Of a stretch of 64,000 nt of DNA, positions 2,746-63,018 are shown piece by piece. How positions within the stretch are numbered: position 1 is the stretch's first letter; every line of letters starts with the position of its first letter. This DNA is from Gautieria morchelliformis (lineage: Eukaryota; Basidiomycota; Agaricomycetes; Gomphales; Gomphaceae), in NCBI GenBank assembly GCA_015179125.1, contig WHVA01000216.1:1-64000 (forward strand). Reading direction: 5' to 3'. A program made the translations under genes and the position numbers. Under the pieces are notes generated by a model. The model was not told where the DNA came from, searched no databases, and saw only the letters and a list, made by a program, of their open reading frames with translations.

Positions 2746-3159
2746 TCTAATCAGATCTCTCAACCATATATAATAATATAGTACAGGTATTGTCCATACT
2801 TGCTTCTATATTCTGTGATTGTACATCTAACATGTTTCATATATACTTCTAACATGTACTCATATAGTCCATACTCGCCTCTACATTCTATCATCATACA
2901 TGTAACATGCGTCATATATACTTTTAATATATAGTCATCCACATCCTCTCTGAAATTGCTCTGTTATCTGAATACACACCATGCTTTAGCACATACAACC
3001 ATATTTTTAAAATATCAGAACATTCAAAGAAATTTAGAATGTCCACAATATACAAGTTGCTCAAAATGATGGACTATGAATTCGGTTAGGGTTGATATTT
3101 TAAAAGATATCTAATATATCCTAGAAGAATGTACATTGTTGTCAATATGAACATCCTCC
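2746..3159 (+). mobile_element. MITE-F, 5'-truncated copy
   Basis: About 410 bp closely matching the right two thirds of the elements at 9281-9927 and 21419-22043. It ends in the same terminal motif GAACATCCTCC. The left third and left terminal repeat are missing. The right end abuts the stop codon of the transposase gene on the other strand, so the insertion or truncation took place exactly at the end of that gene. Confidence 0.8.
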
Positions 3160-4482
3160 TAGTAGCGTCTACCCTTCTTCTTTTGACGTCTAATGTAGTC
3201 CTCTATGCACTGCCTTGTATCAAAATCTTCCTCCCTTACCCAAGTGTGATCTTCATAGTTTTTCCATTGAACTAAGTATTCTCTTCTCTTTCCTTTTGTC
3301 CTATGATCTAGTATTTTGTTCACTTCATATGTATCTTCTATATCTTGGTCAGATTCATTTGTATCTGTACCTGCTAATAATTGTGCTTGATACTTAGACA
3401 TTTTCTTTGCATCTTCTGTAATATCCTTTAGAGTTGAGATTCTCAGTGACTCAAAGTCGAGGGTATCAGTTGATGGATAGTCAAAATGGCTTTCCATCCA
3501 TGACATATGATTAGGTTGTGCTTGGAGCTCTCCTAATTTAACAAACCGTTTGATATTAAGCAGCAAGCATGCTAATCTAAACTGCAAAGAGAATATCTTA
3601 GGATTCGATGTTTGGACAGGCTTCTGATTATTTAACTTCTTAAATGTCATTCCTAATTCTGAAACTACCAAATCTTTCATTGTAGCGCTTCTCCATATCT
3701 GATAGTTCAGCATTCTTCTGCTTCCAAATTGGATGGCAGAAATTCATGTCTTTCAATCTACCTTGCTTTACTACTTGTTTCACAAATAGTGTATAGCCTC
3801 CATCAAGAGCCATACGATCTACCTTATCCATCTTATCTCTTAAGTTCATTTCTGTGAACATTGCTCCATCAGAGTGGCTACATGGCAATGAATCAGAAAC
3901 AAACAAAGCCATCTCATGAAAATCAATAATTACTTGAGTTCTCATTCCAGAATTTCTGTGTTTATGTGACCATTGTACTTTAGATGATCTTCCTATTTCT
4001 GTTCCTCTTGTGTCATGACCATCAAGGAATAAAGTTATTGTGTTGAATAGTTCTTCCTTATTATTATCCTTTGCAGATAATATTCTAATCCTTATGTTGG
4101 AAAACATATGAGCCAACAAATCAATGACTTTGTCATTTAAGTCATTATTAAGGTCCTTTTCATGTCCAAAAAAACTCTGATGGATCGCATGAAAAGTACT
4201 CCCAGGTATAAATCTGTTCATATCATCAAATGTACAACCTTCAATCAGATGATAGAGTATTAATAGCCCCTTCTCTACATTTCGATATGGACCTGGGTGG
4301 TGCTTGAATGGAAATACCACTACTAGGAAGAAGAACACTGGTATTGGTCCAAGTTTCTCTAGTACTCTTTTTTTGATGAGATCTATTTCAGAAACAGGTT
4401 TTAGTCCTGTTCGATGAAATTTAGTTGGCTTCAACAAAGGCCATTTTTCATCAAGAAACCCCCAATGTTCATTCATCAACAT
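3159..4482 (-). pseudogene. DDE transposase with C-terminal chromodomain, frameshifted
   Basis: A start at 4482 opens a 280-residue frame that looks like a Harbinger/DDE_Tnp_4-type nuclease. The candidate triad is D154 in FLDGHDT, D227 in ALDGGYTLF and E269 in RYNERFGSF, the last matching the VERAFG-type motif of the family. Just after E269 the frame breaks. The sequence continues in another frame (entering about 3650-3713) with SELGMTFKKLNN and runs to 3159. Its tail contains a chromodomain-like block: YEVNKILDH, YLVQWKNYEDHTWV, then an acidic and aromatic finish. Reading across a single shift would give about 440-450 residues. A chromodomain on a cut-and-paste transposase may steer insertion toward methylated histones, as known for chromoviral integrases; that is inference. 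Codon use is AT-rich like the rest of the island. Family assignment is from motif reading only. Confidence 0.75.
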
Positions 4483-11501: not shown

Positions 11502-13640
11502 TCAACAGTGCTGAGAAGCCACGTGTTTGCTTGGTCCGAGAGATGGGAGGTTATACGAGGCTGTGGAATTTGTCAAATGAGTGACAGGTGAATATGCATC
11601 TCGACTCGCCTGAGACAGCTCCGTTTGATTCACTGACAGCATTTGTATGTTCGAGCCTGCATTAGGAATTGCTATGGTAGTCGCCTTCGGGATTGCAGGG
11701 GTAGAGGTTATTGGGAAGCAAGAATTGTAGATCTCTCGTGCCTCGACTTCCGTCATGGGAAACTGGAATAAATATAATGAGGTGGACAGCTTCTTAGCAT
11801 TGATGAGACTTGAACTTCCTATCCTCAATGCCCAGAGATGCTTGCAGGCTCCCTTATTTGAGTTGAAATAGGGACATGTGTAATCAGCCTCCTCTCTGTG
11901 GGCTGCCTCTGTCTCAGTGAACCACCATGCTACTGGTATAATAGTCACCGCTTCTAGAGCTATTCCTTTGCAGGCTTCAACCAGGTCAAGACCACCAGCT
12001 TGGCTGCGAAAATGCTCTGAGATCCATAGGTAGTAGTTTTCCTGCAATTTCCGGTTGTTAAATATTCCAGGTAATATCTGAGTGACCAGGAGATAGATAA
12101 GCAGGTCAAACCAAAGACGTTTGCCTGCATGCTGCCAGCGGTGAATGTGTTTCCTTTTAAGGACACCATTGAAGGCTTCCAGGTGATTAGTTGTTGGTAT
12201 CACACCTTCAATGGGGATGTGGAGGATCACTGAAGCATCAAGCCGACCTTTTTGAGACCATCCATGCCAGAGGGATACAGGCATCCATGTTTCAGTAAGA
12301 TAGTCGAGATATTTCAGCCTGGAGTTTGCAGCTACTATCATTTCTGGTAGTGTCTTAAGGTTGGTTAATGTCAACCGTTCTTGTGCCATAAGTTCTTGCG
12401 CTGCACGATAGTCCACCGAGAGCAGAAGTCTGCCGTTACTGTAATTAGTTAAGCTCATTATATCTAAATGAATCTGACATACTGTTCCTCTAATGCTTGC
12501 AGTCTTGCCTGCACCTGTTGTTTCAGAAAGTTTCTTATCTGACCCAGACAAATCTCCTTCCGTCGGTTTGTCCAGCACTGGCGGATATGGAATTTGCATA
12601 GGAGCAGTGTTATATCTGGCCATACGAGAACCAAGGCACCCCGTTCCTTTGTATCTGTGTCCGTAATGGTGACCCAAGGTTTGAACAGGGTTCCATTTCG
12701 CATACCGAGAGAATCACGCCACATTTTGAGAAGCTCGTGAAGTATAGACGTGTCATAACCAGCATGAGTCACTTTGTTGCCTGTTGGAGCGGAGAAAAGA
12801 AAGAAGGCCAGTGGAACACCTTTGCCTGCGTCATCAACACCTAGAGCAATAAAGAGTAGAATCCGACTATCGCATACTCCGAAGGTTCCATCGAGAACCA
12901 ACTGCTTGTGATGTGTGTACTTCCATGCAGCCTTTTTCATGTCCGCAGTCTGGATACAGATGTGTAGACGGTCCTCTTTACTGACTCTTGCCTGATAATA
13001 GAAGATGGCCGCTGCAAGTTCTGGCTTGTATTCTTGCGCTTCAGGGTCCAACCAAGCATCAACATTGTCTTGCGGCTGTTTTGTTGTATCAATACCATGC
13101 ATCCGGGAATATTTGCGGTAAAGTCGGCAAGCATCGGATGGAAGGATTTTGTAGCGAATATTGGCTTTCTGGGGATTGTACGCTGACTGTCTGTTATATA
13201 ACCCTGCACGAAGTAATTCATCGTTGCGACTCTGGATTGCTGCAATGCTGCAGTTCAAGTCAATGTTGATATATTTTGCTACGATACAGTAGTACCAATT
13301 TTCAAAACTCACCTTGCACCATCATTCAATTGCTGAAGTGCAACTTGCCAGACATGCTCGTGCAATGGGACTGTGGGAAGCCGCTGCATATTCTGCTTGA
13401 GACAGGCCTCATTATGTGTTATTACACCTGTTATGCGCAAGATGTTGAAAGTGTCTTCCTGGAACGTTAGGTCAATATGTGCGAGACAGCCCATAAAATC
13501 ATAGGGGGCCTTGTGCTTCCAGTCTTTTCCTTGAGGTTTCAAGCCCTTTGCCTCTCGTTGTTGATCATCTTTAGCTTTGTGAGCATTTGTACTTGAGCCA
13601 CACTGGCTTTTATTGCAAAAGTATTACCTTAGAAAACTTC
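11502..13640 (-). CDS. MULE transposase with SWIM zinc finger
   Basis: Three coding blocks join in frame through two introns. Intron 1 is 13248-13312 (GTGAGT...CTGCAG, 65 bp) and intron 2 is 12439-12482 (GTATGT...TTACAG, 44 bp). The first block is basic. The second holds the MULE core: VLDGTFGVCDSRI (first catalytic Asp), VTITDTDTKERGAL (second Asp) and LLLCKFHIRQCWTN (the C-x-x-H-type helix). The third has TTNHLEAFNGVLKRKH, the probable catalytic Glu, and a SWIM finger CPYFNSNKGACKH. Such genes encode the nuclease of Mutator-like elements. The 5' limit is uncertain: the frame is still open to about 13627 and another exon may lie upstream. No terminal inverted repeats were identified. All three blocks are open, so the gene may be intact, unlike most transposon genes here. 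Confidence 0.8.
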
Positions 13641-19421: not shown

Positions 19422-20663
19422 CTATGGGGTTGAAGGCCCCAGGTTCAAGTTTAGGTTCAGGCCTGGGGTCATAGGGATGAATACGGGCCAGCAGTCTGAC
19501 AGTTGGAATTGCTCTAAGATCTCCTGAATGTATTGTTTTTGCAATAGTGTCAGTGTTTTTTGTGAGTGGTCATACTTCACCTCCACACCCAGTAATGATG
19601 TCATTGGTCCCATGTCTTTTAACTTAGAGATTTTGCCTAGTTTGTCTTCACCTGCTCTAACTCCTGCTTTGAATCTGACACTAAGGTGAGGTTGTCAAGA
19701 AAAACAGGGATGACAACCATGGTTGTGTTGTTCATCCAGACATTCACACTTGGGTTGTGTTTGAATCCCCATGCCCTCTAGGTCCATTCCCAGTTGTTCA
19801 TAATCTTCCGCTCTGCTTCAGACCATAGAGTCCTCTTTTCAGTTTGCAGACCCAATATGCACCCCCATGACGATAGCCCTCTGGCTGCTGCATATATATG
19901 CATGCATCACCATCTAGGACCCCATTCAAGTACACATTGGATATGTCTACAGATTTGATGTGTGCCCCTTGAAGTGCCCCCTGAGCCAATATTGTGCATA
20001 GTGCTGCCCAGCATGTGGTAGGGGTGAAGACCTTGTCATAATTAATACCTAGCCACTGAGTATATCCTTTTGCGACCAAGCAGCTTTTATACTTGTCAAG
20101 GGACCCATCGGAGTGGGGTTTGATTTGGAACACCCAGTATGAGCCAATGGCTTTCTCTCTGGGTGGCAGTTTCTCCAGTTCCCATGTTCCATTTTCTAGC
20201 AGCACCTGGATTTCCACATCTGTCGAATCCTTCCGCAATGGTATTGCCTTGGCAAATATTTTGTGCACATGGACATCCTTAATGGTCACATTGAGTACTA
20301 GCTCAATGGTAACTGGTGAGGTCTTATTCATGCTGGTGACATTTGAGTCATTGTAGATGAACTCCAGGGCCTGACTGGCTGATGCACTAGCTGCTGCATG
20401 CCCCTCAGGGCCTGGATCAGCACCAGGCATGGTCTAAGGAATGGGTCATGGTGGTGGTAATCCTGGCGGACTGTGGCTTGGCTGGAGCGGCAAGGTGGGG
20501 CAGGTACAGGTGGGGGCAGTGGGTCAGGGTTGGTAGGAGCATCAGGTAGTGGGGCATCAGGATCTGGATCCAGTTTGGGAGGGGGTGGAATGTAAAGGTT
20601 TGCCTCGAGGGGATAGTTCCATGGGGAGTTGATATTGCTTATCACAAGACTTGATTGTTTCAT
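19422..20663 (-). pseudogene. Copia-type reverse transcriptase relic
   Basis: A proline-rich lead (20663-20440) is followed by the RVT_2 domain: NGTWELEKLPPREKAIGSYW, the KSCLVAKGYTQ block, IKSVDISNVYLNG (first catalytic region) and LKRGLYGLKQS. The continuation is in a different frame. The active-site box reads FLDN (near 19710) where Copia has YVDD, so catalysis is lost. The segment SLLGVEVKYDHSQKTLTLLQ (19613-19500) is the RT C-terminus. Frame changes near 19798 and 19615 confirm decay. Integrase and RNase H parts are absent; an RNase H fragment at 34335 is on the other strand and belongs to another copy. Confidence 0.85.
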
Positions 20664-21418
20664 TGTTGTCTAGGGGTAAGTCTGTTACAGTAAATGTTCA
20701 TAAAGTAGGCTCAATGAAAAACCAACCCAAAGGCAGGTGAGAAAGTTTCAGTGGACACACAGGAAAACCTGATGAACCCCTGGTAGCATATGTAAAGCCA
20801 GAAAGACAAACTAATGTAAATATTTTGTGGACAATATCTTGCACACCATTGGGAACTTTGAGGTCAGTGGATATACTCTTCTCTCTGAGTATGATAGGCA
20901 TTCCTGCGTAAAGAGGTAGATAACCAGGAAGTGCACTTTGAACTCTCAAAGTCACATTCTAACAGAGGTAGGTGAGATGCAGAAGGAACCAGTGACCCTT
21001 GCATTATGTTGTTCACAGCACATATCACAAGATCAGACAGTTTTGACCACAGGGATTTGAAATGGACTTTTTTAGCATTCAGGAGTTCACACAAGTGGTT
21101 GGTGTGAACTAGAGCTATACTCTCAAGATTGTCATCCTGATTCATGTCAATTACTGCTGGGTAGTGATCTGAGTGTACACATCTAGAGTTGAAAATATTG
21201 ATGTCGCCTTCAGTGCATTCCCTGTGTCTTACTTAGCTTGTAAACAGCAGCACCATATTCTGGATCACTGCACATGCCTCTCTGTTTATGTAAGTCCACA
21301 GCATCTGTAACACTTTTCCATGTGATTCTGCCTAACCAGCATAGCACTTCATTATTGGATTGTGTAGAATTTCTCCAAATTGGTGTATAGAAAGGAGTAC
21401 CTTGTACTGGAGGGTATT

Positions 21419-22043
21419 GGTGGATGTTTATAAATGTCATATATATGTATATATAGCTTAGCTCATCTATATTTCATAAAATATATCACAATTGAGGCAG
21501 TTGCCAGCAATTGTAAGGCATGCTTAATCCTAGCCCTAAAGTTCTTTCTCACAGTCTGCTGCTCCCCCAGGAAAGGGTGTATACCCTATTGTCTAAACAT
21601 CAATAGTTACATATCTTTGTACTATACATGCATATTATTTTAAACATACCTTCTAATCAGATCTCTCAACCATATATAATAATATAGTACAGGTATTGTC
21701 CATACTTGCTTCTATATTCTGTGATTGTACATCTAACATGTACTCATATGGTCCATACTTGCCTCTATATTCTATCATCATACATGTAACAAGCTTCATA
21801 TATACTTTTAATATATAGTCATCCAAATCCTATCTGAAATTGCTCTGTTATCTTAATACACACCGTGCTTTAGCACATACAACCATATTTTTAAAATATC
21901 AGAACATTCAAAAAAATTTAGGATATCCACAATATACAAGTTGCTCAAAATGATGGACTATGAATTTGGTTAGGGTTGATATTTTAAAAGATATCTAATA
22001 TATTCTAGAAGAATGTACATTGTTGTCAATCTGAACATCCTCC
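21419..22043 (+). mobile_element. MITE-F copy F2
   Basis: A 625-bp element, ends GGTGGATGTTTA and (reversed) GGAGGATGTTCA, flanked by a perfect 3-bp duplication ATT (21416-21418, 22044-22046). The target is codon CAA-TAC of the Helitron helicase, between ...GNFFQ and YPPVQG.... It matches F1 at 9281 over its full length. Confidence 0.9.
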
Positions 22044-22209
22044 ATTGATATTGGGATTAGTAGGAGATGTTTGGACTAATGGTAGTTTAGTAACCTTGGT
22101 CATGGATGACCGAAGTAGTATAACAATTGGACACATAGCTAGTCGTACATCAGTGAACTACTCATTCACTGTGCTACTATCAACAGGTTATGGGCCCCAT
22201 AGGCCTGTT

Positions 22210-22362
22210 ATGCCGTCCATCAACTCCGAGATGTTTGCTGGGCCTAAGCTAGCCCAAAATGGTACAAATTGGGTCACCTGGAAGAGCCAGATGATGGCTA
22301 CCCTGTCTGCAACCTGTGGTGCCAAATGGTACCTGGATGTGGCCACATGGATTCCCCCTCTG
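22210..22362 (+). pseudogene. Copia gag N-terminal fragment
   Basis: About 51 codons from MPSINSEMFAGPKL to the LTR-B junction. It contains the NGTNWVTWKSQM motif typical of the Copia gag/UBN2 domain, which packages element RNA. It is cut by the LTR-B insertion at 22363. Confidence 0.75.
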
Positions 22363-23450
22363 TGTCAGGGGACACCTGTCATGACCTGTTTATCCCTGTA
22401 TCTAGTTACCCCAATTTCCCTTTCATCACCCCACCTCTATGTTCGCTCCATTCACCCTTCACCGAATTCGCCGAACAGTTATTCACTACTCACATCATTC
22501 GCCAGTAGGTGCACCATCAAACACGATGGCCATCCTTTGCCCGGCGTGATGGTTCATCACTGGCACCATCACCCCACCAATTCAACCCCCTTTGGGTGTT
22601 CCTATGGCCAGAATGAATTCACGGGACGTCCTACCCATAGATCGTGTGGGATCAACCCAGCAGACCAAGAGTCTGTGCAGGGTAACATGTATGCAGGTCT
22701 CAAGGCGTGTTTTCTTACATAGGTGCCTTTGTTCTCTCCTCCCCTCCGTTGTTTCATTTCGCACTCCTCCCTTCCTCTATTGCATATACATTTCATCTAT
22801 TTGTATCCTGACTGCGCACCGCTATCCAACCCTAAGCTCATGACAGCCTCTTTCCCATTTGCTGATAACATATGAGCTTCGGTGTAAGTAGCTTATGTTC
22901 ACATGTATATTCTGCAGTTCAATTATCATACATCTATCTTGTGCAAAACTTGACCTCACTGTGACTATCATCTTCAGCCTTCTTCTATAGACTACTATCT
23001 TAGACCAGAGGAGGACTTAAGTACCACTGATGAGTTTTCATACTTCACCTTCACTACCTTAGCCTTCATACCATTATTGGTGCTGTCAGGGAAGGGCTCC
23101 GAAGGAGCACCTTTGGCGGCAAAAGGATTGTCACTACTAGACACCCTTTCCATGAGACCTTGTATGTTACATCGTCAAGTGTCACAGGCTATTTTGCTAC
23201 GACTGTAAATAGGGTGAGCCCTGTTTGGGTAGCCCTCTTACCTTCTAAAACATTTATTTGTGCATCATATTCGCCAAACTACACACTTCATTGCACAAGC
23301 CATTCGGGCATTCACTGTGTTCACTAATACATGATATTAATGCCTAAAACCCACTCTTGACAACACCCTGTTTTCCAGCTCCAACACCATCCCAACCAAG
23401 TCCAACACCACCCTGAGTTCCACTTCCATTTCCATCTCCAATTCCAATTC
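22363..23450 (+). mobile_element. LTR-B, truncated, split by LTR-A
   Basis: Starts TGTCAGGGGACACC and resumes after the LTR-A copy with ACACCCTGTTTTCC and a TTCCA-rich run. This is the reverse complement of the LTR-B right end at 33322. The far end (GGTTGCCCTTATA in other copies) is missing, so the right limit is approximate. Confidence 0.7.
22377..23362 (+). mobile_element. Solo LTR-A (copy 2)
   Basis: TGTCATGACC...TCTTGACA, 986 bp, with perfect duplication ACACC (22372-22376, 23363-23367). It is inserted 14 bp into LTR-B, the youngest layer of this stack. Confidence 0.93.
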
Positions 23451-25180
23451 TGCTATGTGTCATTGTGTATACTGAGACATACAGAAGCTTACCCTACTGT
23501 TGTAGCTCGTTTGTCTCTATTCACTGCACTACTGTCAACAATTGAAAGAAATTGCCTGTGAAGATAATGGTGACACCACTGAACCAATGATCAGATTTTT
23601 CCTTGGCATATCTGAGAGCATGGTCAATTTCCAACAACAATTGTTGGCTGATCAGGGAAACCTCATCAAGTAAAACAATATCCATTTTATTCCACTCCTT
23701 GTGCAGGGCACGTCTATTTTTGACATCAATTCCCACAGAGTAGTCTTCGCTGTCTGTTGCCAAATTTCAGTTCAATTTTCCTTTCCCTTTAGTGACTATG
23801 CTGATACCTAAACCCCTATGAACAGTCGTCTCATCAATCAAAGATGTGCCTGCATCCCTACTTGTTCATCAACATATTCACCACACACTACATGAGTTTT
23901 GCCAGTTCTTCCAGGTACAGTGAGTAAAAGACAGACTGGGTTGGGAGGTGGGGTTGAGTTGGATGGACTGTGATGATGAGCCATCAAGGCAAGGAAGTGT
24001 TGCGTGATTACATGGTAAGCAATCCATTGATCCTCATTCAATTCAAACTCATTGCCTATACACATTGTTATAACATAAGGGTCATCCATTGACACCGAAG
24101 GGGTCAGGTCAGTTGTCACACAATCATTTGAAGGGCAGGAAAAAGTTGACATCCACACAGACCAGATTCATTTGGAACACTCCCCACAGTGCCATGGTTT
24201 GATGAAGACTGTGTAGTCAAGTTATTCAAGTTACATCATCTGTTGGATACCAAACTTTCCTGCATCTTAACAGCATCCACACATACATTCCTGCTTGTCA
24301 GATTGGTAGTAACATTTTCCTCAGTTATGGGGTTTCATTACACACAGATGCAATGGACACTCCTAAATCGTAGTTGTCAAGGGAGGGATGCAGGGCAGCT
24401 GGGACTGTTTCAGAGGTCAGCTCTCTTTCTGAGCCTCTCAGCATCATGCTGATCTTGGCACTCATGTATTGCCTCCCAGTTCATTGTAACATGCAAACTC
24501 ATCGAGTCAAATTTGAAGTCATTAAAAATCTCAGAGATTGTCTGATCAGCACATTGGAACAACTTATCAGAGATGCTGAATGGGTGAAAGTGGGCAAGGA
24601 CGAATAACTTGTAAGCATTGTCATCACTGGGTCTGGGTATTCATGTGCTGTCAACACAGGGGACAAGCTTATTTGTGCATGATGCACCCAGTCATTCAGT
24701 GTGCCGCACTAAGGCATGCATGCTTGAAAGATGGTGGGAGGGCTTCATATAAAAATCATGCAAAACATGGAGATTTGAATTCTAAAACATCTCACAAATT
24801 GACAAAAATAACATGAGATGGGTCATCATTGTGGTGTAAGTAATCAGTGATTTGGTTGGACTCAACTAACAAACCTTCACCGTTGACTTGTACCCAAAGT
24901 GGTGTATCCATTGAATGTGCTTTGCATACTGCTATGTCAAAGAAAATTCAAATCACGCTGCATGCATGCCAGCAAGATGCCAGACATCATTGGGACAGTG
25001 GTGTGTGATGAAATAGAATCTCCATGACCTCAAATGTGGTGTATGGATTGCTGAGCCTGGATCTGTTGTTGGTGCATGAACTGGGACAAGCACTTGTGTA
25101 ACAAACTCTTTGTGGCTTCTTTCAGGGGCATAGGAAAGGATGTCGGTGTTTGTGCAACCATCTTTAGATAGGAGGGAGAG

Positions 25181-26168
25181 TGTCATGACCTGTCTATTTC
25201 TCTTACCCCACTGCCTCTATGTTCCCCCCTCCGACCACTCCTCCTCTACGTCCACTCTATCCGCTGTTCGCCCCATTCTCCGAACCGCTATTCGCTGCTC
25301 GTGCATTTTGCCAGCAGGCACGCCATCAAATACGATCAATACCATTTACCCAGCATGATGGTTCATCACTAACCCATCATCTTCTTAATCCAACCCCTTT
25401 GGGTGTTCGTATGGTCAAAGTGTGTTCGTGGGACGTCCCTTCCGTAGGTTGTGCAGGATAAACCCAGTAGACAAAGAGTCCGTGCAGGGTAGCATGTATG
25501 TGGGTCCCAAGACATGGTTTTGTACATCAGTGCCTTCGCCACCTTTACTCTCCGTCATTTCATGTTTGCACTCTTCCCTCACTCTATTGTATGTTTATTC
25601 CATCTACTTAGTATCATGACTGCGCACCCCTATCCAACCCTGACTCACGACGGCCTCTCCCCTATTCGCTGATACCTCACGAGCATTCAATATAAGTAGT
25701 TTACATTTGCATGTATATTCTCCAGTTCAATTATCATATGACGTCCATCTTGTGCAAACTTGACCTCGCTGTGATCATCGTTTTAAGCCTTCTCCTGGAG
25801 ATTTCTATCTTCAACCAGAAGAGGACTTAGGCATCACTGGTGAGTTCTCATACTTCATCTTCATTACCTTAGCCTTCGAACTATTTTCTGTGCTGATGGC
25901 GAACTCCGAAGGAGCACCTTTGCCGGCGAGGGGATTGTCGCTACTTAGACAACCCTTCCATGACACCTTGTACGTTACATCGTCAAGTGCCACGGGCTAT
26001 TTTGCTATGACTGTAGATAGGGCAAGCTCCGCTCGGGCAGCCCTCTCATCTTGTGAACATTTATTGGTTCACCTATTCACCGAACAGCATACTTATTTGC
26101 ACAAGTCATTCGGGCATTCACTGTGTTCACTAATACACAATATTAACGCCTAAAAACCAATCTTGACA
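25181..26168 (+). mobile_element. Solo LTR-A (copy 3)
   Basis: 988 bp, TGTCATGACC...TCTTGACA, flanked by GAGAG (25176-25180, 26169-26173). It interrupts repeat I copy 2, as comparison with the uninterrupted CTCTCCCTCCTATC at 2374-2388 shows. Confidence 0.93.
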
Positions 26169-27565
26169 GAGAGGCATTAGGAGATAAGGACAAGACATAT
26201 GCAACTCAGCAGCATTCTCATCAGTGTCCAATAACTCAAGCTTACAGCAGTAAGCATGGAAGTGAGGGACAAGATTTTTAGATTAAAATATTAAGTGATG
26301 CCTTTAGTAAACGAATTCTATTGCTTAGTGGCTGGGACCGCTATGTTCGTCCCTCTCCTGTGTGCTGACTAAGCCCCTCGAGACGCGTCCGGCACTGATG
26401 GATGGAGGTCATGTGACTGTGTCGATGAGAGAATGGTGTTGATCTAAGGAATAACTAAATCAAAAGGCTTCGCTTTTGAGGTAGTCTAGAGTAAACAGTA
26501 ATAGTGGACTCTCAACAAATAATTGGAGTAAACTATCGAGATCTAAGTCCTGTAGCTATCGAACAAGACTACAGTAATTTCAGGGGGTGAAACAGTTGAT
26601 TCTGGATGATTTATTCATACATTCGCAGTAGCTACTTATACTATATTAGTGGTAACTACTGGTGTTCGAGATAGTGAGTCGATGGGTCGAAAAACTACTT
26701 GTAACTAGAGGGGTGACTAATTATAGTCATAAAATCATGGGAGTGATGGGGATAGTATCAGGGTTGTTTAAACTTTGGAATAGAGTCTTGTACCTATTAT
26801 ACAAAGCCCCTGTCTACATGGTGTCAAGATAGTAGTCAGCTGGTCGTGTCATGGAGTCCAATAGAAAATAGAAATTAAATCTATCCTGCCTAGCATAAAT
26901 GCTACCCTTGGTGATGGGGCCGCTGTCCCTGTGCCTCTTCTGTGGGGCAGCTAATTGAGTACATGTATTATGGATGACATTCTGAAGTCACTCCACAATG
27001 TCTGGTGCTCCTGTGCAGTCTGCATTCCTCTGCGGCGTTTGGTTCCCGCACCTCCTCGGTGCCTGTGGCCTGGAGCCTGTCGACGTCATGGCCGATGCCA
27101 TCAGTCGATAGGCACGCTGTCTCTGATCGGCCGCACGTGGTCGACGCCCATATCCCTGTATCTTATCTAATATGTAGATAAGATAGCTATTTGTGATGTC
27201 ATGTATCTGTCATCTGTGTCGACATCCATCGTAAGTGTCGTTCCTATTCCTTTTAGTCGTTTTTCTTTCTTTCCTTTTATTAGCTTCTTTGTACATAGAT
27301 GACTTAGAATAAAATAATTGCGTCTATCATAACAAAGATGTGAAGCACAGGAAAAATACATGGGTGACATAGATTTGACAAGTACACCTAAACATGAGCA
27401 AAGAGCTGTCAAATCAGTCAGTGGTAAAAATGCAACATTGAACACCTGAACAATGGGATCAACAGACATACAAGACAGCTCCCACAGAACAGCAACAGAA
27501 AGGGGATGTGCAGGGAAAGGGAGTGCACTCAAGATTGTGAAAAAATCTTCACCAACGATCCTAAA
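26169..27565 (-). repeat. Repeat I copy 2, split
   Basis: 26169-26275 and 27335-27565 together match the reverse complement of about 2037-2385. The left continuation is at 25180-24950, across LTR-A copy 3, and leads into the Helitron relic. This suggests repeat I is the upstream part of the same Helitron or a passenger of it. Confidence 0.7.
26276..27334 (-). mobile_element. Element J, ~1.06-kb insertion
   Basis: Interrupts repeat I with a 5-bp duplication AAGAT (26271-26275, 27335-27339). Read on the minus strand it starts TGTTATGATAGACG and ends ATCTAAAA. The TG start and 5-bp duplication suggest an LTR, but the end is not CA. No coding content. A CTTATCTA/TAGATAAG hairpin lies at about 27160-27181. 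Confidence 0.65.
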
Positions 27566-27766
27566 CACAACATCTAGAGAAGGAGTCTGGACCCCCTTCC
27601 TATATTTTTTTTAACCTTACCCATCACCAATTCGACAGCAAAGAACCCATTTTGGGATTTTCTCCAGTGTACTTGTGCTCATTCCCCCTTGATGTTGACT
27701 GTGCAATGCACAACACCTGTGAATTGCACAACACCTAAATGGCCGTGCACCCCAACCCTAGCATAT
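27566..27766. other. Short unassigned gap
   Basis: Sequence between repeat I and an LTR-A fragment. It contains a GAATTGCACAACACCT doublet (about 27700-27740). No gene seen. Confidence 0.35.
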
Positions 27767-28049
27767 TGTCATGACTCAGTTATTTCTTGTACCCAGTAAC
27801 TCCATTCTCCCTTTCATCACTCCATTTCTATGTTCGCTCCGTTTGCTCTTCGCCGGATTCACCAAACGGTTATTCGCTACTCGCGTCATTCGCCATAGCC
27901 ATGCCACCAAAGCACGATTGACGTCCTTTATCCAGCTTAATGGTTCATCACTGTTCCCATCACCTTCTCGACTCAACCCCCTTTGGGTGTTCCTATGGCT
28001 GAGATGCATTCGGGGGGTGGTCCTACCCCTAGATCGTGTGGGATCAACC
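27767..28049 (+). mobile_element. LTR-A 5' fragment
   Basis: The first ~283 bp of an LTR-A, ending GGGATCAACC where the next LTR-A copy begins. Its 3' portion was not found on the far side of that copy. Confidence 0.85.
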
Positions 28050-28240
28050 TGTCGTGACTTGTTTATTTCCCTTACCCAACTATCCCTACTTTCCCCTCAA
28101 CCACTCCTCCTCTATGTCCGCTCCATTCGCTCTTCGCCCCATTCACCTAACAACCATTCGCTACTCGCATCACTCGCCAGTAGGCACACCATCAAACATG
28201 ATCGACATCCTTTACCCGGCTTGATGGTTCATCACTGGTC

Positions 28241-29555
28241 TGTCAAGATTGGTTTTCAAGCGTTAATATCGTGTATTAGTGAACACAGCGAATGCCCGAA
28301 TAACTTGTGCGAATAAGTATGCCATTCGGCGAATAAGTGAACCGATGAATGTTCACGAAACAAGAGGGCTTGCCCGAATGGGGCTCGCCCTATCTACAGT
28401 CGTAGCGAAATAGCTCGCGGCACTTGACGACGTAACGTGCAAGATATTGCGGAAGGGCTGTCTAAGTTTCGACGGTCCCTTCGCTGGCGAAGGTGCTCCT
28501 TCAGAGCCCTTCGCCAACAGCTTAGAGAGTAGTTCGAAGGCTAAGGTAACGAAGATGAAGTATGAGAACTCACCAGTGATGCCTAAGTCCTTGGCTGGTT
28601 GAAGATAGAAATCTTCAAGGGGAGGCTCAAGAAGATGATCACAGCGAGGTCAAGGTTGCACAAGATGGACGACGTATGATAATTGAACTGGGGAATATTT
28701 TCTATTCCCCTTTAAGAAAAATAAAAATAAAAAGCTACATGCAAATGTAAACTACTTATATCGAATGCTCGTACGGTATCAGCGAATAGGAAAGAGGCCG
28801 TCACAAGTCAGGGTTGGATAGGGGCGCGCAGTCATGATACAGCATAGATGAAATAAACATACAATAGAATGTGAGGAGAGGGGGAACATGAAACGACGGA
28901 GAGTAAAGGTGGCGAAGGCACTTATGGACAAAACCATGTCTTGGGACCCGCATACATGCTTCCCTGCACGGACTCTTGGTCTACTGGGTCGATTCCGCAC
29001 GACCTATGGAAGGGATGCCCTGCGAACACATTTTGACCATACGAACACCCAATGGGGTTGGATTAAGAAGACGATGGGGTTAATGATGAACCATCATGCC
29101 AGGTGAATGGCATCGATCGTATTTGATGGTGTGCCTGCTGGCGAATGATGCGAGCAGGGACTAGCCATTCGGCGAAATGCAAGGAAGGGCGAACAGAGGT
29201 GGCCTAGTGGGGGAGAGGTCGAGGTAGAGGGCGAAGCCGAGCGAACACCGAGGAGGAGTAGCGAAAGGGAAAATGGGGATACCAAGGTGTAGGAAATACA
29301 CTGGTCATGGAAATCCAACTATCAGAACGCCATCAGAGGAGGGTCGAACAGCGGAGGTAGTAGACCCAGTGATGACTTGTCAAGTCAGTCCAAAACCATT
29401 GGTTGTGCGTTTTAACGGCGTGGCAGTGGTAGCGGGCGCGAATCAGAGAATATTGGTTGCCGAACATGACAATAGCGATCGGAACGAACACGGAAATGGG
29501 GTGAGAAATGTCAGGACAGAGCACCTGAGTTATGAGGAATAAACGCGTCATGACA
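28241..29555 (-). mobile_element. LTR-A long form, reversed (copy 5)
   Basis: Starts TGTCAAGATTGG and ends CGTCATGACA, i.e. LTR-A on the minus strand. It is 1,315 bp, longer than the ~1,000-bp form because of an extra 5' segment shared with 40247-41490. Only GTC is shared at the two flanks, consistent with a 5-bp duplication that lost two bases. Confidence 0.85.
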
Positions 29556-30561
29556 GTCCCATCATCTTCTCGACTCAACCCCCTTTGGGTGTTCCTATGG
29601 TCAGAATGCATTCACGGGATGTCCTACCCATAGATCATGTGGGATAAACCCAGCAGATGAAGAGTCCATGCAGGGCAACGTGTATGCAGGTCTCAAGGCG
29701 TGTTTTCGTACATAGGTACCTTCGTCCTCTTTCCTCCCCATCATTTCACATTCGCACTCCTCCTTATTTCTATTGTATATGTGTTTCACCTATTTGTATC
29801 CTGACTGCGCACCCCTATCCAACCCTAGCTCACAACGGCCTCTCCCCTATTCGCTGATACCATATGAGCATTCAATATAAGTAGTTTACATTCGCATGTA
29901 TATTCCCCAGTTCAATTATCATACATCTATCTTGTGCCTAAACTTGACCTCACTGTGACCAACATCTTGAGCCCTCTCCTATATATTTCTATCTTCGACC
30001 AGAGGAGGACTTAAGCACCACTGGTGAGTTTTCATACTCCACCTTCATTACCTTAGCCTTCATACTCTTATCTGTTTTGGAACCCTTCAAGACTTTGGTG
30101 TCAGAGCTAACACTTTGGTCTATCAGAACGTGTCGTATACAAAACTCAAAGAATATTAAACAATGCTGCAGCACAACTCCGGAAATAATTTAATATTTGT
30201 ACCTTGGTTGCAATCTGCATAAGAACTAGTCCAAGTTAATACGGATGGAAGGCAATACGTTTCTTAGCAGCACTGAACAATAAACTAAAAGTCTGTAGGT
30301 TCAAGGACGACTATCGGGGTCCAAGTATTCCAAAAAGATAGGAATGGCTTCACAGGAGAGTTTGTAAGTGGACTGACCCGATTAACGTCAATGCACTGCA
30401 ATAAACGAGCGACTAGGGTTTAAGAAGTGACTTGTGAAAGTCACTGAACAGGAAAGTCACTGATCAGTTCGTCTCGGGTATTGGAGAGCTAATTGACAAG
30501 GAAATCGATTGTCAGACTCACTCTGCAGAATTTCACCTGGAGTGTTAGTCCGGGTGGCTAA

Positions 30562-31593
30562 GGAGGGTGTTTGGAATTACTATAATATCAGATGTTTACT
30601 AATAAAAGTAACATTCCCATAAAAGTAACATTCCCATAAAAGTAACATTCCCATAAAAGTAACATTCCCATAAAAGTAACATTCCCATAAAAGTAACATT
30701 CCCATAAAAGTAACATTCCCATAAAAGTAACATTCCCATAAAAGTAACATTCCCATAAAAGTAACATTCCCATAAAAGTAACATTCCCATAAAAGTAACA
30801 TTCCCATAAAAGTAACATTCCCATAAAAGTAACATTCCCATAAAAGTAACATTCCCATAAAAGTAACATTCCCATAAAAGTAACATTCCCATAAAAGTAA
30901 CATTCCCATAAAAGTAACATTCCCATAAAAGTAACATTCCCATAAAAGTAACATTCCCATAAAAGTAACATTCCCATAAAACTCCATCTTTAAATAGTGA
31001 TATCTTTTCTGAAACTATTCCATCATTAAAAAGCAATTCTGGGAAATAGTTCTCCATGTTACACGCTAAACAATTAAAGGTCATTTAATAGAATCCATTG
31101 TATATGATTTCCTTCTGTTTATAGATATCTGTTAATACTTTTGTTGGTACTCCATTTTTTAAAAACTAAACTGCAGTTCTTTCCATGTAAAATATGTAAG
31201 ATATTATTGGAGATTTTTCATGCTACAACCTTCCTAATTAAGCAAACCCACCCAGGTATTATTAGTATGTTGAATCAAATAGAAATATATTCTAGTTAAC
31301 TCACCCATTCTGAGGTAACACGTATGTATTTAAAGGTGTCAATGGCATACACGTGTATGAAATGTACTATCTAAGGGAGTCTACCTTTTAAAATTCTTAA
31401 AGTTCTAACTCACCACAGTGCTTCATAATCTATTCATCTCTTAAAAGGTGCTTTGTTTCATGATGTACAAATAAGTTTTAAAAATTCCAAAAGTTTTAAA
31501 ATCCAAATTATGTTTAGAATAGACTCCAAGTATTTAAATGATCTTAAGGCGATATTAGAGTTTGATACTTCTTATAGTTTCCGAACAACCTCC
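30562..31593 (+). mobile_element. MITE-E copy E2 with expanded minisatellite
   Basis: A 1,032-bp element, ends GGAGGGTGTTTGGAA and (reversed) GGAGGTTGTTCGGAA, flanked by TAA (30559-30561, 31594-31596). Homologous to E1 apart from the 22-copy repeat array. Non-coding in origin. Confidence 0.9.
30604..30977. repeat. 17-bp minisatellite, 22 perfect copies
   Basis: Unit aaaagtaacattcccat, 374 bp = 22 x 17 with no visible mismatch. Because 17 is not a multiple of three, three units (51 bp) encode a 17-residue period, MGMLLLWECYFYGNVTF, and all three minus-strand frames stay open. The predicted proteins here (30580-31084) are artefacts of this periodicity. Confidence 0.97.
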
Positions 31594-31961
31594 TAAGTAG
31601 AAACGCAACTACTTAACTGAGAATTAATACACTAAGTAAGTGTAATAACCCTAGCTGGGGTTAGCAGCTTAGTAAGCTGTGCAAGCTTGGCAAGTCACAC
31701 GAGGTACGTGGATAGTAGATGATGATGTATTGGCTGATTCACTGCTAAAACTGCAGGCTATTTATACTGCATCTATCTAGCTTATGTAACTACTGCTAGG
31801 AACCTTGTAGAGGCTTCTACTACTGTGAAGAACCTTGTGGAAGCTTAGAGAAGCTTCAGGAAAGGTTTGGAAACTATTGGAAGGCTGTGGAAGGTTCTAT
31901 TGCTATATTGGGTTAAAGTCACAGCTCTGTGACAGTAAGAGTATGTAAGAAACTCCCACGC

Positions 31962-32194
31962 TCATGTGATTATCATGTGACGAAGGAAAGTCATGTGACT
32001 TCAAGCTGGATTGAGGTCATGTGACGGTGTCATGTGATTGTCAGGTGACCGTAGATAATCAGGTGACTTTGAGGTCAGGTGATTGTCAGGTGACTGTAGA
32101 TAATCAGGTGACTTTGAGGTCAGGTGATTGTCAGGTGACTGTGGATGATCAGGTGACTTTGAGCTGTTTTTGAGGTCATGTGATAGTCATGTGA
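31962..32194. repeat. TCAKGTGA octamer array in LTR-H copy 1
   Basis: Fifteen TCATGTGA or TCAGGTGA octamers in 233 bp, partly arranged as a ~43-bp higher-order unit (GTCAGGTGACTGTAGATAAT plus CAGGTGACTTTGAG). The core is an E-box-like CANNTG. The array is also present in copy 2 at 39340-39571. Confidence 0.85.
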
Positions 32195-32832
32195 CCATGG
32201 GGGATTCTTAGCTAAACTATCAAGAGATTGTTGTATCTTGTGGACCCAATGTGAGCGTAGCTATGGCACAGCACAGCCTAACATAGCCTTGTTGCTATGG
32301 TAGCATAGGTTGGGCAGAGTTTGTATTGCACAAACTGTGTTGTGGAGGCTTGGGAATAAATTGCCATTTCCAGAGTGCTGAGTCCGAACCGGTAGAGTGT
32401 CCACTCGAGTTCGGGCTCACGCGCGTCGGAGTTTGAATAAGCAGAGTTGTGGATACATGTGGATTCATAACTCTGCTGCAACAGAATAGAAGTGTTTTGA
32501 GCCAAAGACTTCATTAGAAATGGCGAAAAAATGGTAGGAAATTAGAGGAAGTTTAAATAGTTCATCCCCAATGATAGCAATACCAGTATGCTATATTTTA
32601 AGGTCACTATTTCGAAAATACATGGAATTTCTCCTATTTGACCGGCAAAGCAGGATCCCATACATTATCGGTGCTGTCGGCGAAGGGCTCCGAAGGAGCA
32701 CCTTCGCCAGCGAAAGGATTGTTGCTGCTGAACAACCTTTCCATGACACCTTGCACATTACATCGTCAAGTGTCACGGGCTATTTCGCTATGACTGTAGA
32801 TAGGGCAAGCTCTGTTCTGGCAGCCCTCTTAC

Positions 32833-33322
32833 TATAAGGGCAACCCTGGCTGGTTGTGGAGATCACACTACCACACAACTGACAAGGGGAAATCCAAAGT
32901 ATGTATAAATGAACAGAGTATACAAGAGAGGGGATTCTCACCTGACAAGGGGAAATCCAAAGAGAAAAGTCTAAGGACCCCCAATGTCAGCGAGCCCGTA
33001 TTATACTACGCTGCGCAGCCAGGGGCAACACTTGGCACCCGCCATCAACCCTGCATCTCCCTGACCACCCTGACCCTTGATCGACCCTTGATGCCACCTA
33101 TTATGCGAGCCGCTTGATTTCCGACACTGTTCCGAGAGCGGCAGTTGGAAATTGGAGTGGAACTGGCGAGGCGAACAGAACTGGTGGAAGTTCTCCCAGA
33201 AGCAGAATCATTTCCGAAAGCGGAGGCGGAGATGGAATCGGAACCGGAACCGGAGTCGGAAATGGAGTCGGAACTGGGTGTGGTGTCGGAACTGGAAATG
33301 GAAAACAGGGTGTCCCCTGACA
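32833..33322 (-). mobile_element. Solo LTR-B
   Basis: On the minus strand it starts TGTCAGGGGACACC and ends GGTTGCCCTTATA. Duplication CTTAC (32828-32832, 33323-33327). 490 bp. It contains a GGAACCGGAACCGGAGTCGG-type hexamer-like run (33180-33310) and two GGGGAAATCCAAAG boxes. No internal coding sequence. Confidence 0.88.
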
Positions 33323-33449
33323 CTTACCTTCTCAACATTTATTGGTTCATCTTATTCACCGAATGGCACACTTCTTCGCACAAGCTATTTGGGCATTCGC
33401 TGTGTCCACTAATACACGATATTAATGCCTAAAAAAAACAATCTTGACA

Positions 33450-35207: not shown

Positions 35208-36681
35208 TCCACACTCTTTAACAGAACATATTAAAAACACAATTACAGGATTTTGAAAGGAGTTATCTGATAGTTTAACCAGTATGGTTACTGGTTAAGT
35301 GTTACGTATCAAGATTTCCACAAGTTGGTACTAGAAAGGACAATGACTTCAACTTATATGTTGCGCCCCAATAAACTATTGTCCTAAGTATTTCGGATCG
35401 CAAGTCAGAAGTCGGAAAGTATTGAACTTAGACAAGGGTTGGAAGGTGGGTCGGAAGTTGGGTCAGAAGGTGGAGGCGGAAGGCAGAGGGACAAGGGTCT
35501 TGCAAAACTCACTGTGCTAAGAACAGGAGATAGAGCGAAGGAAATCACATATCGAAGGCAATAATCTGATTGCAGAATAACAAGCATACATGAGGGGCTT
35601 TTATACAAAGAGCTGAGACAACATGTAATGGGGTAGTACTAAGCAAATTCTGGAGGGAGCGGAAGTCGGATAGACATATGGGGTAAATAACTAATTGGGA
35701 ACAAAGGACTACAAAGGGGTGCAAGGTAGCATAAAGAACAATGGCAAAAGAACAAGGGGTCGGAAAGTATATCTGACATAAAGAAACAACAAGACTCCAA
35801 AGGGGCCCGGACATATGGTCTTGCTGTGCTGCAAGGCGGGTCCGGTGGGTCTGAGTAATAGAGTCAAAAGAACAAAGGATATAACAAGGGGCAGAATGTC
35901 GGAATTATCGGAGGGTCAGAATGCGAGCGGAACTGAGTGTCGGAAGTCGGAAATGCATGGTCATAACATTAAGGGGCGGACAAGGATATTGGTGATGTCA
36001 TGATGTCATAAACATCAGTTGGTGGCTTCCAATCAGCTGACAGACCTAACCAAGTAGAAGTGCTTGTGTGTTGATCAAGCACTGGATCGGGGGGACAGCT
36101 TGAGCGGGGGCAAAAGAGAAAATGTTTTCTATAGCACCACAAGTGCTATATGAAGACACCGGAGCTTGCGGGATGCAAGGAGAGTAATGTGTCAAGATTA
36201 TTTGACTGTCCTTTGGAAGGGACACAAAGATCAAGTACATATGGAGGTGCATATACATTGGATCTCAAGGAGAAAGCCGATTATGCTGACTGTCTACAGG
36301 GCAAAGAGAGACAATCATGGAGCTATTACATGTTGAGAGGTGCATTATGTATGTTCTCTATAATCCCCACCATTCAAATCCCCCTGTAGAATAATCCCCA
36401 TCTTTTTCTTATGTGTCATGTCACCATAACACCCTCTACCCTGTCCAGATACGCTCACAGGCTCTTTCACCCAGAAATAAAGCACAACATCCATTTCTTT
36501 GACTGCCTATAAATACAGTAGTAGCTCTTGTATGCTACTCTAGCCAGAAATTAACTGTCCTCCCTTGAACATCCATGATTAGTGTGTTTGATCACTGTAC
36601 AATCCATTCCCCATCGATTTACTTTGAACCTTGGTTGAGGGTCTATTATAACTGTCTACTCTCTACTACTCCAGAAGCAAG
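35208..36681. other. No gene recognised; probable LTR-type debris
   Basis: A GTCGGAAG-rich stretch (35400-35950) resembles the GGAxTCGGAA runs of LTR-B. Near 36508, CCTATAAATACAG looks like an LTR TATA region. A plus frame at 36150-36389 has no domain I know. Confidence 0.3.
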
Positions 36682-37230: not shown

Positions 37231-38232
37231 TGTCATGACCAGTTTATTTCTCCTACCGCGCTACCTCTATGTTCCCCCTAGTCACTCCCTAGCATCTTCG
37301 CCAGAGTTCGCCGCACCCACCGACCACTCCCCCTCTACGTCCACTCTACCCGCTGTTCGCCCCATTCTCCGAACCGCTATTCGCTGCTCGCGCATTTCGT
37401 CAGCAGGCATGCTATCAAATATGATCGATACCATTCACCCGGCATGATGGTTCATCATTAACCCCATCATCTTCTTAATCCAACCCCATTGGGTGTTCAT
37501 ATGGCCAAAATGTGATCGCAGGACGTCCCTTCCATAGGCCGTGTGGGATCAACCCAGTAAATGAAGAGCCCATGCAGGGTAGCATGTATGCAGGTCCCAA
37601 GACATGGTTTTGTCCATAAGTGCCTTCGCTCCCTTTACTCTCCGTCGTTTCATGTTCGCACTCTCCCCTCACTCTATTGTATGTTTATTCCATCTACTTA
37701 GTATCATGACTGCGCACCCCTAACCGGCCCTAACTCACGACGGCCTCTTTCCTATTCGCTGATACCTTACGAGCATTCGATATAAGTAGTTTACATTCGC
37801 ATGTATATTCCCCAGTTCAATTATCATACGTCGTTCACCTTGTGCAAATTTGACCTCGCTGTGGCCATCATCTTAAGCCTTTTCTTGGAGATCTCCATCT
37901 TCGACTAGCAGAAGACTTAGGCACCACTGGTGAGTTCTCATACTTCTTCTTCGCTACCTTAGCCTTCGAACTATTTTCTGCGCTGTTGGCGAAGGGATTG
38001 TCGAGACTTAGACAGCCCTTCCGTGAGACCTTGCACATTACATTGTCAAGAGCCACAGGCTATTTCGCTACGACTGTAGATAGGGCGAGCCGCGTTTAGG
38101 CAAACCCTCTTACCTTGTGAACATTCATTGGTTCACCTATTCGCCGAATGGCATACTTATTCACACAAGTTATTCGGGCATTCGCTGTGTTCACTAATAT
38201 GCAATATTAACGCCTGAAAACCAATCTTGACA
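37231..38232 (+). mobile_element. Solo LTR-A (copy 6)
   Basis: 1,002 bp, TGTCATGACC...TCTTGACA, with perfect duplication CTCTT (37226-37230, 38233-38237). Confidence 0.93.
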
Positions 38233-38261
38233 CTCTTGTTCTCTTCTTTGACGACATCCTC

Positions 38262-39739
38262 TGTTTTGGAACCCGTTGAACTAAACGTAAAACTGTGGTG
38301 TTAAACACAAATCTAAAGTTCAATCAGAGATTTGACTTTACAAGCACACACAAGCTTTGAAACTATTTTAACGGAGAACCCAATTAAGAAATTATACTCC
38401 GGTGAAAATCAGAATCAGTATTGGTACAGGAAGTGTAGCAATAGAGATTTAACTGAACATGTGTAGTTCTCAGATTGTGCAATACTTTGTGAGGTCAAAG
38501 AATATTATTAGGCGTCCAAGGGTCCAGATACTTTAAGGGGAAAGCTACCTAGAGTCTTAGGACCGCGAGCCGAGTGAATTAAAGACAACAATAATCCCCA
38601 AGACGTGAAAAGATAGTTCTGCGCTTGAACTCTTCCTCAGTTCAAGTATGTCACTATTCTTGTGGCTTTTCTGGTTTTCCAACTCAACAAACGTAGGATA
38701 TTAACTCACTTACCCTGAGTTAGGTTAATATCTGCAGTGCGTTGATTGATCAAGAAAGATCAATTACTCAAAAGGCTATTAACCCACTTAACTCAGAGTT
38801 AAGTTAATAAACTATTGCGTGAATTGAATAACTAATAACCAAGTCTATTAGATCACTGCTCAGAGTGGCGTCTAATGGTACAGGATTACTAATCAGTTAC
38901 TCTTAGTAATGTTGCTGTTCGCAGCACGATTATTCAGAGCCTGCTGCAATTAAAATAGAGCACTCTTGTACTTCTCAGAGCCAATCAGAGTTGCTGCAAT
39001 CTTAGACTGGAGCCAAGTCAGTGAGCCAGTACTTCAGTACAAGGCTGTGTTGAAGTCACACTTCAGTTACTCAAGGTATGAGTGGTTTGGGTGAAAGATG
39101 ATTGATTGCTTCACTGCTAAAACTGCAGGCTATTTATACTGCATCTATCTAGCTTATGTAACTACTGCTAGGAACCTTGTAGAGGCTTCTACTACTGTGA
39201 AGAACCTTGTGGAAGCTTAGAGAAGCTTCAGGAAAGGTTTGGAAACTATTGGAAGGCTGTGGAAGGTTCTATTGCTATATTGGGTTAAAGTCACAGCTCT
39301 GTGACAGTAAAGCTAAGAGTATGTAAGAAACTCCCACGCTCATGTGATTATCATGTGATGAAGGAAAGTCATGTGACTTCAAGCTGGATTGAGGTCATGT
39401 GACGGTGTCATGTGATTGTCAGGTGACCATAGATAATCAGGTGACTTTGAGGTCAGGTGATTGTCAGGTGACTGCAGATAATCAGGTGACTTTGAGGTCA
39501 GGTGATTGTCAGGTGACTGTGGATGATCAGGTGACTTGGAGCTGTTTTGAGGTCATGTGATAGTCATGTGACCGCGGGTGATTCTTAGCTAAACTATCCA
39601 GAGATTGTTGTATCTTGTGGACCTGATGTGAGTGTAGCATAGAAATATTAATACAACCTTTCTTGAGGACATTTGAAACTAATTAACTAACTAGTAAATG
39701 TTCATAAATAGGTAGCTACTTTGTGGACGATCCCTAACA
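38262..39739 (+). mobile_element. Solo LTR-H (copy 2)
   Basis: TGTTTTGGAACCC...CCCTAACA, 1,478 bp, perfect duplication TCCTC (38257-38261, 39740-39744). Its right half is nearly identical to LTR-H copy 1. No flanking pol sequence belongs to it. Confidence 0.92.
39340..39571. repeat. TCAKGTGA octamer array in LTR-H copy 2
   Basis: Same array as in copy 1, kept at similar length, so it is an ancestral feature of this LTR and not a local expansion. Confidence 0.85.
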
Positions 39740-62179: not shown

Positions 62180-63018
62180 GCTGCTTGAGCAAGGTGCAGA
62201 AATTAATGCAGTGGGAGGATATTATGGTACTGCACTCCAGGCAGCGGGGGTAAGAGGCCACATGGAGATTGTTCGGTTGCTGCTTGAGCATGGAGCAGAT
62301 ATCAATGCAGTGGGGGGACTATGTGGTGCTGCACTCCAGGTGACAGCCTTGGGTGGCAACACAAAGACCTTTCAGCTCCTGCTTCAGCATGGAGCAGACA
62401 TCCATGCAGTGGGAGGACATTATGGCACTGCACTCCAAGCAGCAGCATTCAGTGGCCACATGGAGATCTTTCAGCTCCTGCTTGAGCAGGGAGCAGATGT
62501 CAATGCCATGGGAGGAGAATATGGTACTGCACTGCTGGCAGCAGCATTGAGTGGCCACACAGAGATAGTTCAGCTACTGCTTGAGCATGGGGCAGACATC
62601 AGTGCAGTGGGAGGACATTATGGCACTGCACTTGAGGAAGTGGCATTGAGAGGCCACACAACCATTGTTCAGCTGCTGCTTGAGCAGGGAGCAGAGGTCA
62701 ATGCAATGGGAGGAGAATACAGTACTGCACTCCAGGTGGCAGCATTGAGTGGCCACATGGAGATATTTCAGCTGCTGCTTGAGCAGGGAGCAAAGGTCAA
62801 TGCAGTGGGAGGACATTATGGCACTGCACTCCAGGCGGCAGCATTGAGTGGCCACATGGACATCTTTTGGCTGCTGCTTGAGCAGGGAGCAGAGGTCAAT
62901 GCAGTGGGAGGACATTATGGCACTGCACTCCAGGCAGCAGCATTGAGTGGCCACCTAGAGATCTTTCGGCTGCTGCTTGAGCAGGGAGCAGAGGTCAATG
63001 CTATGGGAGGAGAATATG
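62180..63018 (+). repeat. Ankyrin-coding tandem repeat, highly homogeneous
   Basis: Eight to nine 99-bp units alternate AVGGHYGTALQAAALSGHM and AMGGEYGTAL types. Several are almost identical in DNA, more uniform than in the intact gene, suggesting recent array growth or gene conversion. Confidence 0.9.

Follow-up and report, generated by a model that had tools for sequence, protein, structure and literature searches.

The Helitron helicase relic described here is interrupted at one point, where a MITE and a Copia relic now lie side by side. The Copia relic holds a remnant of LTR-B, and this remnant in turn holds a solo LTR, LTR-A. The locus lies within the first 64,000 nucleotides of contig WHVA01000216.1 of Gautieria morchelliformis, the whole of which was analysed and is referred to below as the window. 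The nest is real and cleanly resolved, but ordinary: we read it as a transposon nest of the usual kind in a repeat-rich eukaryotic genome, with the MITE as its most likely last arrival (probability of about 0.85). A preliminary description had presented the locus as five nested layers whose order of insertion, namely Helitron, MITE, Copia, LTR-B and LTR-A, formed a complete and rare relative clock. Of the five steps advertised for this clock, four remain; nesting at this locus gives no position for the MITE, which probably came last.

The helicase relic and its uninterrupted site

Homology to the helicase, recognised at both the DNA and the protein level by comparison with paralogs elsewhere in this genome, covers 20616..25180 on the minus strand in two stretches, 20616-21418 and 23541-25180, and is truncated at both ends; the interval of 20698-24170 reported earlier does contain a nest, but falls short of these limits. 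A Pfam search identified PIF1 (PF05970, E 2.1e-8) on 23541-23853, and the paralog L036 matches the same family (E 8.9e-18). Searched singly, 21234-21416, 20942-21232 and 20617-20943 had no match in Pfam, but these pieces do match the frames of the paralogs, and a first Pfam search with unframed helicase pieces also returned no match. Helitron_like_N (PF14214) was found in the paralog L022 (E 4.9e-26). For a Helitron_like_N or Rep part, three frames of the minus strand of 26169-28300 gave no Pfam match. Further, tblastn of the paralog frames against the window returned only two additional matches, 35399-35638 and 38832-38891, both of them in repeats that occur beside paralogs L025 and L028 and match both strands. 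Helitrons begin with 5' TC, end in a 3' CTRR hairpin and insert between A and T without a duplication. Both termini are missing here, the homology stopping at 20616 and 25180. Because the copy is truncated at 25180, it is named a Helitron relic by descent from the paralogs that carry Helitron_like_N; its helicase is of the Pif1 type, and the gene is now dead.

On the minus strand, the helicase is cut between GNFFQ and YPPVQG by 2,125 bases. The first half (...GNFFQ) ends at 23542 and the second (YPPVQG) starts at 21416; since the insert of 2125 bp (mod 3 = 1) separates codon tops at 23544 (mod 3 = 0) and 21416 (mod 3 = 2), the reading frame of one half continues into the other at the junction. 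The 100 + 100 bases flanking the insert, joined at the shared ATT, were aligned to 12 distinct paralogous helicase places, a set that excludes a few further listed matches, e.g. C1033 and C369. No gap occurs at the junction in 8 of the 12 (C439, C665, C506, C682:273k, C1081, C340, C711 and C559), some of which carry small gaps elsewhere. A ninth place, C651, matches all 100 bases of one flank and 19 of the opposite flank; in C181, C188 and C682:269k the junction is absent from the stretch examined. Coordinates, frame and uninterrupted site thus all bear out the earlier proposal that the GNFFQ and YPPVQG codons had been split. The companion claim, that deletion of the inserts brings the halves back in frame, is correct at the junction but fails beyond it, where about six other changes of frame remain relative to the open frames of L026 and L036 (near 24.93, 24.76, 24.1, 23.87, 21.23 and 20.94 kb). 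At least one stop also falls in the helicase matches, within 23541-23853. A helicase that is whole but for the insert is ruled out by the six further frame changes. An artefact of assembly is ruled out as well, because the junctions have proper duplications and the uninterrupted site recurs.

The inserted elements

The Copia relic is bounded by exact copies of ATTGA at 22044..22048 and 23541..23545, which agrees with the interval (22049-23540) and duplication first assigned to it; the first three bases of the left copy also serve as the right duplication of the MITE. Its 5' LTR (TATTGG...CAACA; 22049..22185, plus strand) was aligned to L010, L012, L013, L016, L017 and L019 and is internally shortened relative to them. 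A leader and the start of gag follow (22186..22362, plus strand; ATG at 22210), 81% identical to C200 over 22168-22361, and the tail of the 3' LTR, placed by alignment to family copies and ending in CAACA, occupies 23454..23540 (plus strand). The nearest relative, L010 (C200), carries Retrotran_gag_2 (2.1e-13), zf-CCHC and Pol_BBD (2.6e-13). The 51-aa gag start in the window matches Retrotran_gag_3 (0.037) and DUF4219 (0.0024), both below the Pfam cut-off. With LTRs and a 5-bp target duplication, this stretch is a relic of an LTR retrotransposon, probably of Copia type, of which the 5' LTR, the beginning of gag and the 3' LTR tail remain.

Within the Copia relic, the 5' end of LTR-B (TGTCAGGGGACACC) lies at 22363..22376 on the plus strand, and family copies with differing flanks have the same left border. 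The remnant continues at 23363..~23452 (plus strand), its first five bases being the ACACC duplication of LTR-A, and here 75 of 80 positions are identical to the C705 copy (L032). The 3' part is deleted. The earlier wording, which spoke of LTR-B remains, was apt, as the 5' end is defined by the family and the 3' part is gone, along with any target duplication on that side.

LTR-A (TGTCATGACC...CTTGACA, 986 bp) spans 22377..23362 on the plus strand between copies of ACACC at 22372-76 and 23363-67, and both its borders and its duplication hold as originally drawn. It matches family copies end to end at 84-88% among the 40 of 4,128 first-look candidates that were scored, and 5-bp duplications flank 11 of the 28 other distinct copies of the family examined. 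A Pfam search of the 1.5 kb beside the LTRs of two family members, L046 and L068, run to name the superfamily, gave no match. One full LTR with a 5-bp duplication and no internal part identifies LTR-A as a solo LTR.

The MITE, MITE-F2, is 625 bp long (21419..22043, plus strand), with the termini GGTGGATGTT and AACATCCTCC. Its target duplication, ATT, occupies 21416..21418, the bases with which the original ATTGA target begins at the uninterrupted site recovered in 8 of 12 places, and 22044-46. These exact repeats, together with end-to-end matches to family copies up to 97% identical, confirm the borders and duplication first proposed. The family numbers at least 45 matches (40 of 512 candidates scored). 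Of 27 copies examined, 20 cover positions 1-625, and an exact 3-bp duplication, whose sequence varies from copy to copy, flanks 14 of these 20. A scan of MITE-F2 for open reading frames found none of 150 aa or more. Being short and multicopy, with terminal inverted repeats and a duplication of fixed length, MITE-F2 is readily classified as a MITE from its sequence features.

Insertion order and relative age

Containment supports the order Helitron, Copia, LTR-B, LTR-A, and to this extent the original sequence of events stands. The depth of nesting is four rather than five, because the MITE adjoins the Copia relic side by side and is not contained. When MITE-then-Copia and Copia-then-MITE were computed, the products were letter-for-letter identical, since the 3-bp duplication and the 5-bp one begin at a common left edge. 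The second place given to the MITE was therefore not an observation. Nor is a complete clock supported. A second solo LTR lies at 25181..26168 on the plus strand with GAGAG on both sides and resembles LTR-A (78% over 945 aligned positions); it abuts the end of the Helitron homology, beyond the interval first described, and nesting cannot order it against the other inserts in the same Helitron.

Taken together, the observations fit a history in which a Helitron copy would have inserted first, and Copia would then have integrated into the helicase with a 5-bp stagger at ATTGA. An LTR-B element would have entered the Copia gag and LTR-A the LTR-B, with most of the Copia and LTR-B sequence lost through deletion and LTR-LTR recombination. 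The MITE, moving by cut-and-paste, would have entered the left ATTGA with a 3-bp stagger, most likely as the last step and not the second.

The position of the MITE was approached through divergence, using one tree with 29 MITE rows and another with 33 LTR rows; the latter omits L070, whose best match duplicated the L044 copy, and the C891:19019 copy is hence absent. Terminal branches, which give only an upper bound on insertion age, measure 0.0085 for MITE-F2 and 0.0773 for LTR-A. Over 100 bootstraps the medians were 0.0069 (0.0009-0.0158) and 0.0679 (0.054-0.0929), respectively, with 0 of 100 pairs reversed. For the Copia relic, a tree of 12 rows over 193 bp gives a terminal branch of 0.129. 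Measured against a family majority from which six divergent MITE copies and four LTR copies of the window were excluded, LTR-A differs by 82 transitions and 16 transversions, and 24 of its 88 CpG positions have changed; MITE-F2 has only 2 CpG positions. As the LTR family thus decays fast by transition, comparisons over all sites overstate the contrast between the two elements, and private changes between purine and pyrimidine were compared too. These transversion-type changes amount to 0/625 in the MITE and 10/983 in LTR-A (Fisher p = 0.008). Strictly private substitutions of all kinds number 2/625 and 15/983 (p = 0.023), and transversions from the family majority 4/625 and 16/983 (p = 0.11). 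The ends of the two Copia LTRs differ at 4 of 23 positions, all by transition; the chance of at least four such differences is 0.006 at 3.2% divergence and 0.19 at 10%, so that this short comparison, given how fast transitions accumulate, lends weak support to the late arrival of the MITE.

A further line of evidence comes from a sister copy of the MITE. In L002 (C682), a copy 97% identical to MITE-F2, with the duplication TTA, interrupts an LTR-A-type LTR, whose pieces 32-676 and 679-986, 80-82% like LTR-A, flank it. This is the one case of a MITE in an LTR-A-type LTR in a scan of 98 loci and the window, and the same scan found no LTR-A-type LTR inside a MITE. Copies of the MITE and the LTR guided the choice of these loci, some of which have short flanks; L002 is one count, in another LTR, and no survey.

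Among the best-scored family copies, divergence places the MITE last, where the preliminary description had put it second, and divergence and the L002 interruption together make a final insertion of the MITE very probable. Had the MITE nevertheless come second, Copia would have landed exactly at its right duplication, and LTR-A would be a young insertion from a divergent lineage without sampled siblings. Such a course of events yields exactly the observed sequence and draws some plausibility from the LTR candidates scored, 40 of 4,128: if a closer source copy was missed, the private changes of LTR-A may predate its insertion and LTR-A may be overdated. The difference in transversions from the majority, at p = 0.11, also leaves it some room. 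It is nonetheless unlikely. The MITE has a terminal branch roughly one tenth as long as that of LTR-A, none of its 625 positions bears a private transversion-type change, and the arrival of Copia, LTR-B and LTR-A, as well as the deletions, would all have to fit within the small divergence of the MITE, even though 4 of 23 positions already separate the two Copia LTR ends and a sister MITE sits within an LTR-A-type LTR.

Neighbouring copies and other nests

The matches listed for the component families, from at most 40 candidates scored in each search, comprise 44 MITE, 63 Copia or LTR-B, 15 helicase and 44 LTR-A-type places. Among them, no MITE elsewhere lies within 5 kb of a Copia or LTR-B place or of a helicase, and no Copia or LTR-B place within 5 kb of a helicase (44, 63 and 15 places); similarly, none of the 44 LTR-A-type places elsewhere is that close to a listed MITE or helicase. 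The sole component pair among the matches listed is in C153, where an LTR-B place lies within 5 kb of an LTR-A-type copy. Flanks that were examined add pairs absent from the matches listed. In C705 (L032), about 280 bp separate a MITE copy from LTR-B; L014, L015 and L017 have LTR-A-type LTRs close to Copia pieces, and in L002, L004, L005 and L006 pieces of the LTR-A type neighbour MITE copies.

Such neighbours lend a little substance to the notion that the nest is a composite element that moved as one unit and records no local history. However, the MITE, Copia and LTR-A each have a duplication of their own, the helicase is uninterrupted at 8 of 12 places, and no repeat of the window junctions was seen in any of these neighbour pairs (C153, C705, L002, L004-L006, L014, L015 and L017). 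A common composite element had been named in advance as a possible refutation of the nest; we consider it extremely improbable. Much the same holds for a single event, in which MITE and Copia entered one break, for instance with the MITE captured during repair of the Copia integration gap, and the order of the two has no meaning. Its appeal lies in the exact left edge that the two duplications share, but this is one coincidence only, the divergence values suggest separate times, and the matches listed include no other MITE/Copia pair within 5 kb; its chance of being right is very slight. That the shared edge is no accident in a broader sense, reflecting either one break or a preference of the MITE for freshly duplicated targets at retrotransposon borders, is a speculative and quite improbable idea.

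Nests, and dating by nesting, are established. In Laccaria bicolor, transposable elements have been described as tightly nested or clustered, with 382 nests or clusters whose members are mostly incomplete and most often involve Gypsy and Copia, in a genome that also holds Helitron and MITEs (PMC3411680). The present case differs in concerning another genome and in offering a single locus, resolved base by base, for which paralogous sites lack the interruption. REANNOTATE derives insertion order from containment and reports nesting across eukaryotes (PMC2672092); by the containment rule as described there, we would expect an adjacent, non-contained pair such as this MITE and Copia to receive no order. 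The interruption matrix of TRANScendence obtains order from genome-wide counts of interruptions between families (PMC5657132). As that source presents it, the approach works on many interruptions, and by our reckoning one locus would supply a single count for each pair.

The locus matters little in itself. It offers a clean worked example of a limit of nesting chronologies, in that adjacent insertions with a shared duplication edge have no readable order. It also illustrates that a confident reading of nesting can be the reverse of the divergence evidence, and that any comparison of ages between families here must first discount the decay of CpG-rich LTRs by transition.

Rarity, too, was claimed for the locus, against which stand the published tight nests and nesting chronologies and other nests in the window itself. 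A third LTR of the LTR-A kind occupies 975-1975 with the duplication CATAG, and an insertion at 26276-27334 has the duplication AAGAT. Another LTR of this kind, at 28050-33449, is spread over four collinear pieces, with a further such LTR, reversed, in the first gap. Given these further LTR insertions and the nest at 28050-33449, nesting is common in this window. The gene content, with NPHP3_N, ankyrin, chromo and MULE domains, and the genome size of 122 Mb give a fungal impression.

Substitution pattern and further copies of the LTR-A family

Across the family of LTR-A (loci L042-L071), the solo LTR innermost in the nest that splits the Helitron helicase relic, transitions are strongly in excess, with LTR-A itself carrying 82 transitions against 16 transversions and alterations at 24 of 88 CpG positions. 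Such an excess would be the expected outcome of cytosine methylation or of a RIP-like process, a cause that we infer. Further solo LTRs of this kind lie in the window at 975-1975, with the duplication CATAG, and at 25181-26168, where a relative with the 5-bp duplication GAGAG borders the helicase homology.

The region 28050-33449 is a further nest, built on an LTR-A-type LTR that is broken into four collinear pieces (28050-28238, 29558-30075, about 32659-32832 and 33323-33449). The first gap holds a second LTR of the same type, reversed, at 28241-29221. Elsewhere in the genome, an LTR-A-type LTR is interrupted by a MITE copy with the duplication TTA (positions 850-2430 of locus L002, contig C682:128300-131921).

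Edges and paralogs of the Helitron homology

The Helitron homology ends sharply at 20616, the identical base at which the matches of the helicase paralog loci L034 and L036 stop. Close by, a Copia-type reverse transcriptase (RVT_2, E 3.8e-26) lies on the minus strand at 19798-20430, oriented opposite to the Copia relic nested in the helicase.

Among the paralogs, the one on contig C665 (L026/L036) has a long open helicase frame, amounting to 1,089 aa in L026, and the one on C181 (L022) has Helitron_like_N. In the paralog on C651 (L023/L037), other sequence seems to lie 19 bases from the same helicase junction, between GNFFQ and YPPVQG. Repeats at 35321-35771 and 38231-38891 of the window also directly adjoin the helicase paralogs L025 and L028.

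Other insertions and coding frames

A 1,059-bp insertion at 26276-27334, flanked by the duplication AAGAT, divides a sequence that has an inverted counterpart in the window: taken as reverse complement, 2370-2264 matches it at 99% identity and 2268-2049 at 90%.

ORFs encoding NPHP3_N and ankyrin repeats occupy 52436-55450 and 60858-63149, with domain matches at 52436-53161, 53177-55450 and 62211-63149; the two regions are apparently related copies. Frames for a MULE transposase (12464-13312), DDE_Tnp_4 (3640-4482) and a chromodomain (3159-3713) all lie on the minus strand. The 161-aa frame at 30599-31084, in which the short peptide GNVTFMGMLLLWECYFY is repeated throughout, is an ORF call on a tandem repeat.
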